From a virus, in the IMG/VR virus record IMGVR_UViG_3300011116_000049, positions 1 to 35,309 of that record: DNA of 35,309 nucleotides. One strand, given 5' to 3'. A program made the translations under genes and the position numbers. Shown one piece after another: positions 1 through 35,309 of the stretch. How positions within the stretch are numbered: position 1 is the stretch's first letter; every line of letters starts with the position of its first letter. Under the pieces are notes generated by a model. The model worked only from the letters and a program-made list of their open reading frames with translations. It was not told the DNA's origin and ran no database searches.

Positions 1-79
1 GCAACTTTTCCATCCTCTTGCGTAAGGCTCGTCTGCTGTTGCTCCCACCGTCTAATCCTGTCGTGTTGGGCGTGTGGAA
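1..79. repeat. Terminal direct repeat (circular overlap), left copy
   Basis: These 79 bases recur at the right end of the window (35231-35309) with one mismatch, C at 15 versus T at 35245. The methyltransferase reading frame runs uninterrupted across the join if one copy is removed, so this is an assembly overlap of a circular or circularly permuted molecule, not a pair of phage terminal repeats placed at a gene boundary. The mismatch is silent in the methyltransferase frame (GAG/GAA, both Glu). Confidence 0.93.
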
Positions 80-581
80 GCTGTCCACGCCATTTGGCGA
101 CAATCCAGATTCTGTCCCTCTGATGGTTTGCTCCAACATCCGCTGCTCCCAGCACTCCCCATCTCGCATCAAACCCCATTGAGGCCAAGTCTCCAAGAAC
201 TCGTCCAAGTCCCCTAGAAGTGAGCATTGGTGAGTTTTCCACGAACACGAATCTGGGTCGTACTTCACGAATGATCCTCGCCATTTCTCCCCACATTCCT
301 GACCGCTCTCCATTGATGCCAACTCCTTTTCCAGCGGCTGAGATGTCTTGGCACGGAAAGCCTCCAGATACGACATCAACAATACCTCTCCATGGGGTTC
401 CATCAAAGGTTTGAACATCATCCCAAATCGGGAAAGTCGGGAGAAGTCCGTCATTTTGTCGGGCGCACAGTATGCTTGCTGGATACTGTTCCCACTCGAC
501 GGCACAGACTGTTCTCCATCCAAGGAGATGCCCCCCCAATATTCCTCCACCAGCGCCTGCGAAAAGAGCCAACTCATTCAT
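1..581 (-). CDS. DNA cytosine-5 methyltransferase, N-terminal part (gene cut by window edge)
   Basis: Encodes the catalytic half of a C5-cytosine methyltransferase that would methylate phage DNA, plausibly against host restriction. The frame starts with ATG at 581 and runs off the left edge after 193 codons. Visible motifs: SAM-binding motif I FAGAGGG (residues 7-13), catalytic motif IV GGFPCQDIS with Cys77, motif VI ENS (115-117) and motif VIII QRDR (154-157). Joined over the circular overlap to 34777-35230 it gives about 344 aa, a normal size for the family. The start overlaps the stop of the upstream 54-aa gene as ATGA, suggesting translational coupling. Its sequence specificity cannot be read from the sequence. 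Identification is from motif order and is firm. Confidence 0.93.
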   Translation of the reverse strand, partial: MNELALFAGAGGGILGGHLLGWRTVCAVEWEQYPASILCARQNDGLLPTFPIWDDVQTFDGTPWRGIVDVVSGGFPCQDISAAGKGVGINGERSGMWGEMARIIREVRPRFVFVENSPMLTSRGLGRVLGDLASMGFDARWGVLGAADVGANHQRDRIWIVAKWRGQLPHAQHDRIRRWEQQQTSLTQEDGKV

Positions 582-1809: not shown

Positions 1810-2118
1810 ATGAAGTTCGGTACATTCTGGAAAAAGCTTGTCCGTAGAAAAGATCCCCACACCAGCCAAGAAGCAGCCAAATCGGTTGATACAACCAACA
1901 TGGAGCAGATTGTCTATGAGGTCATCGCTCAATATCCAAGTGGTTGCATACAAGACGAGGTGCTGGCGCATCTGATGAGCTACCCATACTCTACAGTCAC
2001 CGCTCGGTTCAGAGCCTTGCTCGACAAGGGTTACATCATCGACACTGGGTTGACTCGCCCTGGTAGGTCGGGAAGAAAACAGCGAGTTCTCATCATCAAG
2101 GAGTTTCACAATGCCTAA
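1810..2118 (+). CDS. Winged-helix DNA-binding protein
   Basis: A 102-aa protein from ATG 1810, chosen over an upstream TTG at 1741 because of the AAGGAGA signal. After a basic N-terminus it has HTSQEAAKSV and then a helix-turn-helix region (about 35-70) with DEVLAHL and STVTARFRALLDKGYI, followed by a wing-like RPGRSGRKQRVLI. This is the layout of small phage MarR-like winged-helix proteins. As first gene of the plus-strand recombination operon it may be an early regulator. It overlaps the exonuclease start by 8 nt. Confidence 0.7.
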   Translation: MKFGTFWKKLVRRKDPHTSQEAAKSVDTTNMEQIVYEVIAQYPSGCIQDEVLAHLMSYPYSTVTARFRALLDKGYIIDTGLTRPGRSGRKQRVLIIKEFHNA

Positions 2119-3061
2119 GTTAACCTCGGACAAAATGCTGTCCTGCTCACAACTGCCCAGCCTGTTTGGTGTCAGCCCTTACTCCAGCCCGAATGATGTC
2201 TTGATGTTCTGCATCAAGTCCATACTGGGCGAGGATGCCCGAACCCCAGCGGGTGAAGCGGCAGACTGGGGAAATGCTTTGGAGCCAGCCATCATTGCGG
2301 AGATGGCAAAGCGCCTCGGCATTGACCGATATGAGATGCCAGACAAGGCATTCCAGCACCCTGAACTTGCTCTTGCCGCCAGCGCAGATGCCATTGCCCT
2401 GATCGATAAACCCATGGTGATCAAACATGACCCCAGCAAAGGGATTTATGTCATGGATGGCGACAGCATTGAGTTGAATGGCAATGGTGTGCTGGAGTCC
2501 AAGCTGACCCGTGGTCACCCAGAGGATGTATTGCCCTTGTACCGTGGGCCAATTCAAGTCCAAGGCGTGATGATGTGTACTGGGTTGGACTGGGCAGCCA
2601 TCGGTTGCTTGTACTCAGGCGTGGAACTGCGGATCTTTCTGTTCAAGCCACACGCTGAAACCATGGCACAGATTGAGAACTACGCCATCGATTTTCAAGG
2701 CAGACTGACTACCTTTGAAGAGACTGGGGAAGCTCAGTATTACCCAGCGGCTGACAGCAAAGATGCCAACCGCATCTGGCCTACCGCAAGGGAAGAAGAG
2801 ATCGAACTGGACATTGATGCCGAAGACTTGGTTGCCAACATTGTGCTTGCCAAGAACAAGATTGCCAGCATCCAAGAAGACATTGATATTTGGGAGAAGG
2901 ATCTCAAAGAGATGATGAAGGATTATTCCAGTGCCAAGGTCGGACATTGGACTCTCAAATGGCCTATGCGTCACTACAAAGCCACGCCTGAGAAGATCAC
3001 ACCAGCCAAAGAAGCCTACTCAATCCGTCAGTCAACGATCACCATCAAGGAAACCAAATGA
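2111..3061 (+). CDS. YqaJ-type viral exonuclease/recombinase
   Basis: A 316-aa nuclease of the lambda-exonuclease/YqaJ PD-(D/E)XK superfamily, which degrades the 5' strand of duplex ends to give 3' tails for annealing. Seen in sequence: WGNALEP (53-59), SADA with Asp93, the LESK core (Glu129, Lys131) and IQVQGVMM (148-155), the usual Gln-containing motif of the fold. The start ATG 2111 is preceded by AAGGAG. Its stop overlaps the ERF start (ATGA), the typical pairing of a two-component recombination system. The C-terminal third (about 245-285) is helical and may be coiled coil. Confidence 0.88.
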   Translation: MPKLTSDKMLSCSQLPSLFGVSPYSSPNDVLMFCIKSILGEDARTPAGEAADWGNALEPAIIAEMAKRLGIDRYEMPDKAFQHPELALAASADAIALIDKPMVIKHDPSKGIYVMDGDSIELNGNGVLESKLTRGHPEDVLPLYRGPIQVQGVMMCTGLDWAAIGCLYSGVELRIFLFKPHAETMAQIENYAIDFQGRLTTFEETGEAQYYPAADSKDANRIWPTAREEEIELDIDAEDLVANIVLAKNKIASIQEDIDIWEKDLKEMMKDYSSAKVGHWTLKWPMRHYKATPEKITPAKEAYSIRQSTITIKETK

Positions 3062-3777
3062 AACAAATTGCATCAGCTTTGGTCAAAGCCCAACGAGCTT
3101 TTGGCCCAGCATTAAAGACCAGTACAAACCCTCATTTTCGCAGTCGGTATGCAGATCTGTCTGCTTGCGTGGAAGCCGTCATCGATGCCCTGAATGAGAA
3201 CGGTATCTATTTACTGCAAAAAAATTACGACTGCAATGATGGCATCATGTGCGAGACAGTGTTTGTCCATGAGTCTGGCGAGATGCTGGAGTGTGGCATT
3301 GTCCACTTCCCTGCTGTCAAACAAGATCCGCAAGGGTACGCCAGTGCCTTGACCTATGCCCGTAGGTACAGTCTCATGTCTGCTTGTGGTATCGCTCCAG
3401 AGGATGATGATGGCAATGCTGGCAGTCGCAAGTTAGCGCCAGCAGTCAATCCACTGGATGCCATCAAGCCAACAAACCCAGCGAATTTGCCATACACGCT
3501 GAACATACCAGGCAAAGAACCACGCCAATATGCAGACTCAGAAACCTACACCAATGGAACCATCGAATTGCGTGAAAAGGTAGAGAAATCAGCATTGACA
3601 CCACGCACCAAAATGACCAAACTTAGGGAACTGCGTGAGGCAAACGAGGATCAGGTAAACAAGATCAACCCTGAGCATAAGGCTAAGTTGCTTGGGGATT
3701 ACCAACTGCGCCTGAAAAGACTGGGCGCACAGCTTGAGGAGAAAGTAGATGAATCCAACGGACTGGGAGAAGCTTGA
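3058..3777 (+). CDS. erf: ERF-family single-strand annealing protein
   Basis: A 239-aa protein with the ERF signature: FRSRYADLSA (27-36) near the N-terminus and PQGYASALTYARRYSL followed by GIAPEDDDGN (91-120). ERF proteins form rings on single-stranded DNA and anneal complementary strands. Here it would take the 3' tails made by the upstream exonuclease, serving recombination, end repair or genome circularisation. The C-terminal half (after about 150) is a charged helical tail outside the conserved core. It overlaps the exonuclease stop by 4 nt. Confidence 0.92.
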   Translation: MKQIASALVKAQRAFGPALKTSTNPHFRSRYADLSACVEAVIDALNENGIYLLQKNYDCNDGIMCETVFVHESGEMLECGIVHFPAVKQDPQGYASALTYARRYSLMSACGIAPEDDDGNAGSRKLAPAVNPLDAIKPTNPANLPYTLNIPGKEPRQYADSETYTNGTIELREKVEKSALTPRTKMTKLRELREANEDQVNKINPEHKAKLLGDYQLRLKRLGAQLEEKVDESNGLGEA

Positions 3778-32882: not shown

Positions 32883-33533
32883 TTAGTGTGCTTTGTAGGA
32901 TATGGTTTTTGTTGTCCAGCATTCACGACAATCTAGGCATTTGCCTTGCTGGTTCGGTGCATTGCATTCTGTTCCCATGGGCTTTGTTGTGTGAACATTA
33001 GAAATAGCAATATTGGCAATGCCTTGCAAGCTTGCTGGAACAGTGACAGCTTTGTCAACATACATTGCAGACAGTCTCACAATCAAATTCTTAGGCAATG
33101 ATCCATGCTTTGCAATGTATTCTTTGACCATTGCATATTCCCTTGTTGGCAACCAATGCTGGCAATGTGGTGTCTGCTTTGCTACTTGTGCAATCTTTTC
33201 AAGATGCCAAAGCCCTTGCAGATCTCCAGCATCATGCCATCTGAAATAGGGATCCGATCCAATACTCGCAACCATTGAATCAACCCAAAATTCATCATTC
33301 AGACTATCAAGTCTTGCGTGTTGTGCTGGTTCAATATTGTTTGCATATTGCAAATAATTGCCTTTGTTTGCGTAACACATGGAACAGATGGAACCCTCGA
33401 GCTTTGCCATCTTGAATCCAGTCTTGCAAGCCACTGTAGGCAATGAATAAGACTTGCAAGGCATTTTGCTGGTCTGTGTCAATCCAGCATTGATTGCGTG
33501 AGCTTCTTTTTTGAGCATGATGATCTTTTGCAT
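32883..33533 (-). CDS. Gp88-family phage protein with two cysteine clusters
   Basis: A 216-aa protein from ATG 33533 (GGGGGTGATC upstream). It has CKSYSLPTVACKTG (Cys26, Cys36), SICSMCYANKGNY (Cys50, Cys53), FRWHDAGDLQG (97-107) and a C-terminal Cys190/Cys199/Cys202/Cys205 group (GKCLDCRECW). This matches the layout of the phage gene-product-88 family known from mycobacteriophages and many environmental phages. The cysteines suggest iron-sulfur or zinc binding. Biochemical activity is not established to my knowledge. Confidence 0.75.
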   Translation of the reverse strand: MQKIIMLKKEAHAINAGLTQTSKMPCKSYSLPTVACKTGFKMAKLEGSICSMCYANKGNYLQYANNIEPAQHARLDSLNDEFWVDSMVASIGSDPYFRWHDAGDLQGLWHLEKIAQVAKQTPHCQHWLPTREYAMVKEYIAKHGSLPKNLIVRLSAMYVDKAVTVPASLQGIANIAISNVHTTKPMGTECNAPNQQGKCLDCRECWTTKTISYKAH

Positions 33534-33535
33534 GA

Positions 33536-33619
33536 TCACCCCCAAACCAAAAGAATGACCAGCAAACTAGGCAAAGCCAGCAAGCAAGCCACAATTACAT
33601 AAAAGTCTTGTTTGTCCAT
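33536..33619 (-). CDS. Tiny membrane protein, 27 aa
   Basis: A very short gene with a strong AAGGAGA ahead of ATG 33619; the product, MDKQDFYVIVACLLALPSLL and seven more residues, is one transmembrane helix. Its leader shares 19 nt with that of the recombination operon (1786-1804). The stop overlaps the GGGG that serves the next gene. Function unknown; small phage membrane peptides can act on host membranes or as exclusion factors. Confidence 0.6.
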   Translation of the reverse strand: MDKQDFYVIVACLLALPSLLVILLVWG

Positions 33620-33941
33620 CTTGAATTCTCCTTAGTAGGTAGGTTTTTCAGATCTATCGAAGCAGAATTGCTATCGATGCACAGAATTTATTGCTTCTAT
33701 GTGCGATATGAAATAGGTGTTTACCCTAGATCATGCAATTATTTATTGACACAAGCGCAAAATGTATAGATCAAGCCATTGCAGATATTCAATGTGTTAT
33801 TTTGTTTGCAATGCAATCTCTGCCAGTATTACAAGCCCTTTTCATGGCATTGCATACAGTAAACAATGCCACCTACAGTCTGGCCAAAACTTAAATTGAG
33901 TCCTGGTCAACCAACACTGGTATGGGGCGCTTGGCAAATTT
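33620..33941. other. Intergenic control region, about 320 bp
   Basis: No clear gene. It holds the leader element at 33627-33645, A/T-rich DNA and several TGCA-type repeats: ATCATGCAA (33730-33738, identical to part of the 1765-1778 operator) and TTGCAATGCAATC (33806-33818). A possible minus-strand promoter is TTGAAT and TATACA about 18 bp apart (near 33792-33764). It probably contains the start of the operon running to 31795; a 53-codon plus-strand frame is discussed under rejected items. Confidence 0.45.
33627..33645 (-). promoter_or_regulatory. Leader/RBS element, second copy
   Basis: Minus strand AACCTACCTACTAAGGAGA, identical over 19 nt to 1786-1804, ending in the Shine-Dalgarno of the 27-aa membrane gene. 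The following bases (ATTCAAG versus GTTCA) are also close. The shared leader suggests common control of two early operons. Confidence 0.6.
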
Positions 33942-34406: not shown

Positions 34407-34603
34407 TTTTTCATCTCCCGCAAATAAATGGCAATACTGGATAACGTATCTTTGCCAAACGATTTCAAAAAATCATGCTCAATTCTGTACGCTGCCATCT
34501 CCAGCGCAGAGTTCCACCCAGCAATGTATTGATCATCTTTTAGATTGGCTTTCACCGCCATTTGCCTGGCTGAACTCTCTTGTTCCCATTGGTTAAATTC
34601 CAT
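34403..34603 (-). CDS. Hypothetical protein, 66 aa
   Basis: Begins MEFNQWEQESSARQMAVKAN and continues as a mostly helical protein (QYIAGWNSALEMAAYRIEHD). It overlaps the preceding HTH gene by 11 nt. AAAAGGAAACCAG before ATG 34603 contains a usable ribosome site. No function can be assigned. Confidence 0.6.
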   Translation of the reverse strand: MEFNQWEQESSARQMAVKANLKDDQYIAGWNSALEMAAYRIEHDFLKSFGKDTLSSIAIYLREMKK

Positions 34604-34793
34604 CTGGTTTCCTTTTGCTTGATGGCTTGAATTTGCCAGCTTTGCGAAAGATGGTTCTCAAACTGTTGTAGTTCACACCAAATCTGTTGGCAATCTCCAG
34701 CTTGCTGAACCCTTGGTCGAACAAACTGAATGCTCTGCGCTCGTCAATCTGAATCGGTTTGCGTCCTGATCCTTTTCTAGCTCCCCCATGCAT
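34593..34793 (-). CDS. Helix-turn-helix DNA-binding protein, 66 aa
   Basis: Begins HGGARKGSGRKP after the Met, a basic AT-hook-like start, followed by RRAFSLFDQGFSKLEIANRF (19-38) and GVNYNSLRTIFRKAG, a resolvase/transposase-type helix-turn-helix, and a basic tail. It follows immediately after frame B of the methyltransferase region (TAA then ATG) and overlaps frame A by 17 nt; GGAGAG lies about 8 nt ahead. A regulator of the downstream operon, or a DNA-binding accessory of the methyltransferase, is plausible. Confidence 0.7.
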   Translation of the reverse strand: MHGGARKGSGRKPIQIDERRAFSLFDQGFSKLEIANRFGVNYNSLRTIFRKAGKFKPSSKRKPDGI

Positions 34794-35309
34794 TTAAGAC
34801 TCTCCATGCTGTTGCTGCACACAATGGGACTTGTCCATTGCCAATGGCTTTAAGTCTGTCCACCCTAGAGGCCACCCCATGAGCCACTCGACCCACGTTG
34901 GGTTCAACTGACCACCATTGCCTGCTCCCATCAGTCGAGCCTCTTCCACTGTTGTGTTTTTGTTCAGTAAATCCCAACTGCCAGTCCCGCCATACATCCC
35001 CTTGGTTCTTGGTGTAGGCCAGTTCATCTGCCGATATACCGCCACTGCTGTCGATACTTGCCCCACATTCCTGAATAAATTCATTCCTGGGCTGTCCTTC
35101 CAATCCCTCGCATTGGGCGTAGGCCATTTCTCTTGTATCTCTGGGTTCGCCAAGCTGAAATTCACTCCTCCCTTGGCTTTCCAAGATGCGCTCGTTGGCT
35201 TGCTCCTGTGATCTGTGGCTTGCGGAGTTGGCAACTTTTCCATCTTCTTGCGTAAGGCTCGTCTGCTGTTGCTCCCACCGTCTAATCCTGTCGTGTTGGG
35301 CGTGTGGAA
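34777..35309 (-). CDS. DNA cytosine-5 methyltransferase, C-terminal part (frame A)
   Basis: Continues the methyltransferase begun at 581 across the circular overlap (the first 79 nt repeat its middle). The C-terminus has EPNVGRVAHGVASRVDRLKA followed by IGNGQVPLCAATAW, the motif IX-X region that closes the SAM domain in C5 methyltransferases (GNGQVP replaces the commoner GNAVVP). The stretch before it is Gln/Glu/Ser-rich and is the place of the target-recognition domain. The same DNA is open in another frame for 450 nt (34794-35243). Confidence 0.9.
   Translation of the reverse strand, partial: PHAQHDRIRRWEQQQTSLTQEDGKVANSASHRSQEQANERILESQGRSEFQLGEPRDTREMAYAQCEGLEGQPRNEFIQECGASIDSSGGISADELAYTKNQGDVWRDWQLGFTEQKHNSGRGSTDGSRQWWSVEPNVGRVAHGVASRVDRLKAIGNGQVPLCAATAWRVLNAWGS
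34794..35243 (-). CDS. Alternative frame B over the methyltransferase 3' region, methyltransferase-like C-terminus
   Basis: Open for 149 codons from an internal ATG, offset by one base (+1) from frame A. It reads like another known type of phage methyltransferase C-terminus: repeated blocks LPTPQATD, WPTPNARDWKD and NWPTPRTKG, then GGQLNPTWVEWLMGWPLGWT and DLKPL. Its TAA stop directly precedes the ATG of the next gene, as expected of a real gene end, whereas frame A overlaps that gene. It could be made by frameshift, by internal initiation, or be a relic of an ancestral frame. Confidence 0.5.
   Translation of the reverse strand: MEKLPTPQATDHRSKPTSASWKAKGGVNFSLANPEIQEKWPTPNARDWKDSPGMNLFRNVGQVSTAVAVYRQMNWPTPRTKGMYGGTGSWDLLNKNTTVEEARLMGAGNGGQLNPTWVEWLMGWPLGWTDLKPLAMDKSHCVQQQHGES
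35231..35309. repeat. Terminal direct repeat (circular overlap), right copy
   Basis: Second copy of the 79 bases at 1-79; differs at 35245 (T) from 15 (C). In frame B the difference changes Arg to Lys; in frame A it is silent. See the left copy for interpretation. Confidence 0.93.

Follow-up and report, generated by a model that had tools for sequence, protein, structure and literature searches.

The methyltransferase locus of this viral contig appears to be read in two frames of the same strand, over the whole length of the gene. The window, i.e. the complete stretch of DNA analysed, comprises 35,309 nt. We consider it probable, at roughly three in four, that two same-strand genes, which overlap completely and are here called frame A (alpha) and frame B (beta, +1 relative to A), specify the two subunits of a single C5-cytosine DNA methyltransferase. 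The open reading frames, their conservation, the alternating constraint and the motif positions of A and B are established from the sequence. The first-pass annotation had claimed dual coding for this gene; the claim is correct, and the doubly coding region is longer than first noted.

The two ends of the window (1-79 and 35231-35309) overlap by 79 nt, 78 of which are identical, so the window is circular and was cut within the minus-strand methyltransferase gene. The single mismatch, C15 versus T35245, represents a population variant or an assembly error; as already noted in the first pass, it is silent in A (TQEDGK) and a conservative K/R exchange in B. After rejoining, frame A encodes 344 amino acids. 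Its 5' part (1..581, minus strand, ATG 581-579) contains the catalytic half with motifs I to VIII, including GGFPCQD (motif IV PCQ, 345-365), and continues over the junction at 35230. The 3' part (34777..35230, minus strand) consists of a variable linker and motif X (LKAIGNGQVP, 34825..34854) and ends with a TAG at 34777-34779. Frame B encodes 337 amino acids and spans the whole length of A. It starts 4 nt downstream of A (ATGAATGAG) with the ATG 577-575, and its protein begins with MSWLFSQALVEEY; between the two starts, frame B contains a TGA, which ends the reading frame upstream. The 5' part of B occupies 1..577 and the 3' part 34794..35230 (both minus strand). The latter comprises a target-recognition-like segment (TRD), PTP repeats and a motif IX-like sequence, LNPTWVEWLMGWPLGW (34860..34907, minus strand), named from its pattern and position, with motif X of frame A directly 3' of it. 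B ends with a TAA at 34794-34796, and the ATG of the next gene (34593..34793, minus strand, 66 aa) follows directly. This gene shares its first 17 nt with the end of frame A and matched no Pfam family. L081, a relative with 97% identity in A, has the same arrangement in contiguous form, without a junction.

Most of what had been read from the 3' end is therefore borne out: frame B is open over 34794-35243 (minus strand), its TAA lies directly before the ATG at 34793, and it carries WPTPNARDWKD and LNPTWVEWLMGWPLGW, with RLKAIGNGQVP in A. The 450-nt open frame is real, but it constitutes only the 3' part of a 337-codon frame that crosses the junction.

Several other features of the contig can be identified. 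A RusA endodeoxyribonuclease (PF05866) is encoded at 739-1164 and a GP88 family protein (PF17338) at 32883-33536, both on the minus strand. A YqaJ-like recombinase (2111-3061) and an ERF family protein (3058-3777) on the plus strand are likely a recombination pair. A 28-nt inverted repeat (1783-1810 / 33621-33648, 26/28 identical by blastn) lies about 1.7 kb from either contig end.

Frame A has the hallmarks of a C5-cytosine DNA methyltransferase. It matches PF00145 (E=1.6e-31, residues 4-217) and contains the PCQ of motif IV as well as motifs VI and VIII. Residues C77, E115, N116, R155 and R157 are invariant in 76 relatives, 73 of which also carry the motif X pattern [KR].[IL]GNG. It does not form a complete single-chain enzyme of this class, as no motif IX precedes motif X; even a looser, generic motif IX pattern was found in none of the 76 A relatives. 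With protein B held fixed, 563 stops would be expected in the TRD segment of A across 124 loci, and six are seen. The frame is thus kept open where its sequence is otherwise free, as would be expected of a spacer whose only task is to connect motifs VIII and X within a single chain. Single in-frame stops in A next to an intact B occur in L027 (TAA, codon 272), L067 (TGA, codon 108) and L091 (TGA, codon 53); they run against an obligate alpha unless they are errors or mark decaying copies.

The openness of frame B exceeds what protein A imposes. Relatives with a B frame full of stops, named in the first pass as the finding that would speak against dual coding, were looked for in 58 unique viral contigs fetched by frame A alone, and B is open to its end, without a stop, in all 58. 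When the synonymous codons of A were resampled with protein A unchanged, the expected number of stops in B was 6.4 per gene under phage codon usage and 5.6 under the usage of the family itself. The resampled probability of an open B is 0.9-1.3% per gene in the 58-contig set and 0.0012 for the window gene alone. Across 129 relatives, the first 165 codons of B contain no stop, against 398 expected. Protein identity of B between distant relatives is 0.51, compared to 0.35 in the resampling null, a difference that is partly due to silent sites shared by descent. In all of these counts the relatives are not mutually independent, and purely silent sites are few. Frame B matches the orphan family phrog_1008 (E=1.9e-25, residues 65-319; E=5.5e-25 for B of L081), while no family was matched in Pfam or NCBIfam. 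Searches of PDB sequences with a B profile and short motif IX peptides gave no significant match, and AlphaFold models of the two chains (from 76 and 94 relatives) reached mean pLDDT values of 47 and 51, too poor for comparing folds.

B has its own conserved start codon. Its ATG is present in 135 of 136 loci, in which A starts at the usual place with ATG (66), TTG (30) or GTG (15) or has no start codon there (25); in the last group A begins upstream instead. Codon 2 of A is AAT in 129/129 loci, while elsewhere AAT and AAC are used 302 to 260. Only AAT supplies the ATG of B, and its fixation therefore supports the B start. The N-terminus of B carries a conserved motif, MSWLxSxAL, as in MSWLFSQAL. 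In a sub-lineage (L002, L012, L096, L123, L155 and others), B uses an upstream start and begins with MSWLISKAL, in DNA other than that which encodes the NELALFAG motif in A, and in the bacterial loci L228, L196 and L219 B likewise restarts upstream. The motif has thus been rebuilt outside the overlap, which indicates that B is conserved independently of A. An internal start near 35243, one route earlier proposed for a second product, is unlikely given that this conserved ATG of B lies at the 5' end of the gene.

To see which frame is constrained where, we compared 64 pairs of relatives, sorted each substitution according to what it changes in A and in B, and divided the counts by mutational opportunity, yielding relative rates. 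In the TRD segment, changes that affect only A are common (64.6) and those that affect only B (5.1) or both (9.1) are rare, so here B is constrained and A nearly free. The catalytic half shows the reverse, with rates of 6 to 20 for only-A and 45 to 62 for only-B changes. In the last 50 codons the rates are about equal (41 and 38) and both frames are constrained. The window itself follows this pattern: against L083, only-A and only-B changes number 39 and 9 in the TRD and 7 and 21 in the N-half; against L086, they number 15 and 1 in the TRD and 4 and 21 in the N-half. Changes that create a stop in the +1 frame of the methyltransferase are rare (0 to 11). As a control, 80 flanking-gene pairs were analysed with a phantom +1 frame; there, changes that introduce a stop (84.8) were as frequent as other A-silent changes (84.0), as expected where no second gene exists. 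Constraint thus alternates along the gene, resting mainly on A in the catalytic half, almost only on B in the TRD and on both frames in the last 50 codons. As in a genuine same-strand overlapping gene pair, purifying selection acts in both frames, so that two products from one locus, as first suggested, are to be expected. The further suggestion that these offer two alternative target-recognition ends is not supported, since only B has a constrained recognition segment and motif IX, and the corresponding part of A is an almost unconstrained linker.

Motif IX in B is assigned from a 16-residue pattern together with its position. The strict pattern, L-x-P-x6-M-G-[WF]-P-x2-aromatic, occurs in 84 of the 94 B relatives and a looser one in 86, and the spacing of LNPTWVEWLMGWPLGW is the same as that of the canonical motif IX LTPRECARLMGFPDTF in L263 and L265. 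Catalytic halves that are near-identical are followed by swapped VIII-IX segments in 2801 of 3792 pairs; L030 and L077, for example, share 97.1% DNA identity in the catalytic half and 21% amino acid identity in the TRD. Such free swapping fits target recognition. In addition, gp70 of phage ShiLan is one ORF that matches both the family of A (phrog_363) and that of B (phrog_1008), and this single-chain fusion ties the C-half of B to methyltransferase function. Pattern, position, constraint and the ShiLan fusion together point to this part of B as the putative TRD. In the close relative L001, located on the same contig as L086, a new LNPDWVEWLMNWPIKWSDL takes the place of the recognition end and B is enlarged to 436 codons; the old 3' end persists downstream, in other frames. 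The 3' end of L001 looks like a recent recognition-domain exchange.

In the two-subunit enzyme proposed here, alpha would bind SAM and carry out catalysis with motifs I-VIII and X, its VIII-X segment serving as a spacer. Beta would be translated from its own ATG 4 nt downstream of that of alpha. Its N-half is a weakly constrained extension whose conserved MSWLxSxAL start may dock on alpha, and its C-half would supply the TRD and motif IX. By analogy with the chains of M.EcoHK31I (PMC3404938), alpha and beta probably assemble into one enzyme. From these patterns we infer that both starts are used for translation, that the chains assemble and that they divide the work in this way. The role in the phage is probably protection against host restriction, as suggested by the family.

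Programmed ribosomal frameshifting, an unlikely alternative, would instead give one canonical chain: translation would start in A, shift by +1 into B after motif VIII and perhaps shift back after motif IX. The order of motifs I-VIII, TRD, IX and X in the DNA is indeed collinear with that of single-chain enzymes, and in ShiLan gp70 the two parts share a frame. However, B would then need neither its own conserved ATG and N-terminal motif, the latter rebuilt outside the overlap in a sub-lineage, nor a stop-free N-half (0 versus 398 stops expected), and an A frame kept open through the TRD would be equally superfluous. Two shifts per gene would be required to take in motif X.

It is no more probable that B is a real overprinted protein of unrelated function, e.g. 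a regulator or counter-defence factor. While its lack of a Pfam match and an N-terminus conserved without a known fold would suit such a protein, phrog_1008 is fused in frame to a catalytic domain in ShiLan gp70, alpha accompanies B in all 100 loci examined, the variable half of B behaves as a swapped TRD, and alpha is left without motif IX. That B is a by-product of the conserved A, or a decaying frameshift relic, can hardly be maintained: part of its pattern (e.g. W-P and GLMR) does follow from conserved A motifs, but the TRD is conserved in B where A is free, identity between distant relatives exceeds the null (0.51 versus 0.35), B lacks stops and keeps its start, and in control genes stops arise freely in a phantom frame.

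A past frameshift in one chain had also been proposed for this locus. While B is no relic, such an event may well explain the origin of the two-subunit arrangement, as ShiLan gp70 illustrates. A frame-shifted single-chain ancestor is plausible because the DNA retains the canonical order and only the TRD-IX segment is in +1. We lean slightly towards a scenario in which a canonical single-chain gene acquired a +1 shift ahead of the TRD and a second shift behind motif IX that restored the frame. The full-length products of both frames would then have become obligate subunits of one enzyme, each mainly a spacer where the other functions.

The arrangement is widespread. At least 593 relatives of B and at least 597 of A were found in viral contigs, and 167 relatives of B in bacterial genomes, among them Pseudomonas, Acinetobacter, Burkholderia, Chromobacterium, Verrucomicrobiales and Planctomycetota. 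When 100 distant phage, plasmid and bacterial loci were profiled, the catalytic part (alpha) was present in every one, and 87 have motifs I-VIII and X in one ORF and motif IX in +1. Motif IX is in +1 in 79 bacterial loci, and in 75 of these no stop interrupts B from close to the start of A onwards. Few DNA phage genes are known to overlap on the same strand for about 1 kb and to show constraint in each of the two frames; here, hundreds of viral contigs and numerous bacterial genomes carry such an overlap. No account of it was found in the literature searched. The proposed reading links the orphan family phrog_1008 to a function and accounts for the 'DNA methylase' gene pairs seen in actinophages. 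It also corrects annotation, in which one of the two frames is usually missed or called hypothetical. The locus provides a natural test of a protein split across reading frames, with specificity evolving in DNA that also encodes the linker of another protein.

Similarities to several known systems can be observed. The phages TelAviv, Gladiator, PeterPeter and Dorothy have second 'DNA methylase' genes, in +1, that match phrog_1008; such second genes of mycobacteriophages are annotated 'DNA methylase' or 'DNA methyltransferase'. As in our locus, the second gene of these actinophage pairs is in +1, overlaps the catalytic gene and belongs to the same family as frame B, but only about 20 to 210 nt are shared, and it is the second gene that has motif X. 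In Paenibacillus phage Redbud (gp50/gp51, 'g50 internal gene'), an internal +1 ORF of a C5 methyltransferase gene matches phrog_1008 as well, although it starts well inside the gene and lacks the MSWLFSQAL start. An out-of-frame ORF in a phage methylase gene is also known from ShiLan gp65, a hidden HNH endonuclease (Genes 2025, PMC11855218). That ORF is a homing endonuclease insertion and not a part of the enzyme; a similar identity for frame B was considered and dropped, as no HNH family matched B.

Among two-subunit enzymes, the gene for the small subunit of M.EcoHK31I lies inside the large-subunit gene, in another frame. M.AquI is likewise a naturally split, two-polypeptide C5 methyltransferase. 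Its large subunit contains motifs I-VIII and its small subunit the distal variable region with motifs IX and X (PMC3404938), whereas here motif X is on alpha. In M.EcoHK31I (YGGCCR), the large subunit carries motifs I-VIII and X as well as the predicted TRD, and the small subunit carries motif IX (PMC3404938). Our locus resembles it in that motifs I-VIII and X fall on one chain and motif IX, assigned by pattern, on the other. It differs in that the TRD is in the frame of the small subunit and, in this comparison by motif layout, in that beta extends over the entire gene from a start 4 nt behind that of alpha.
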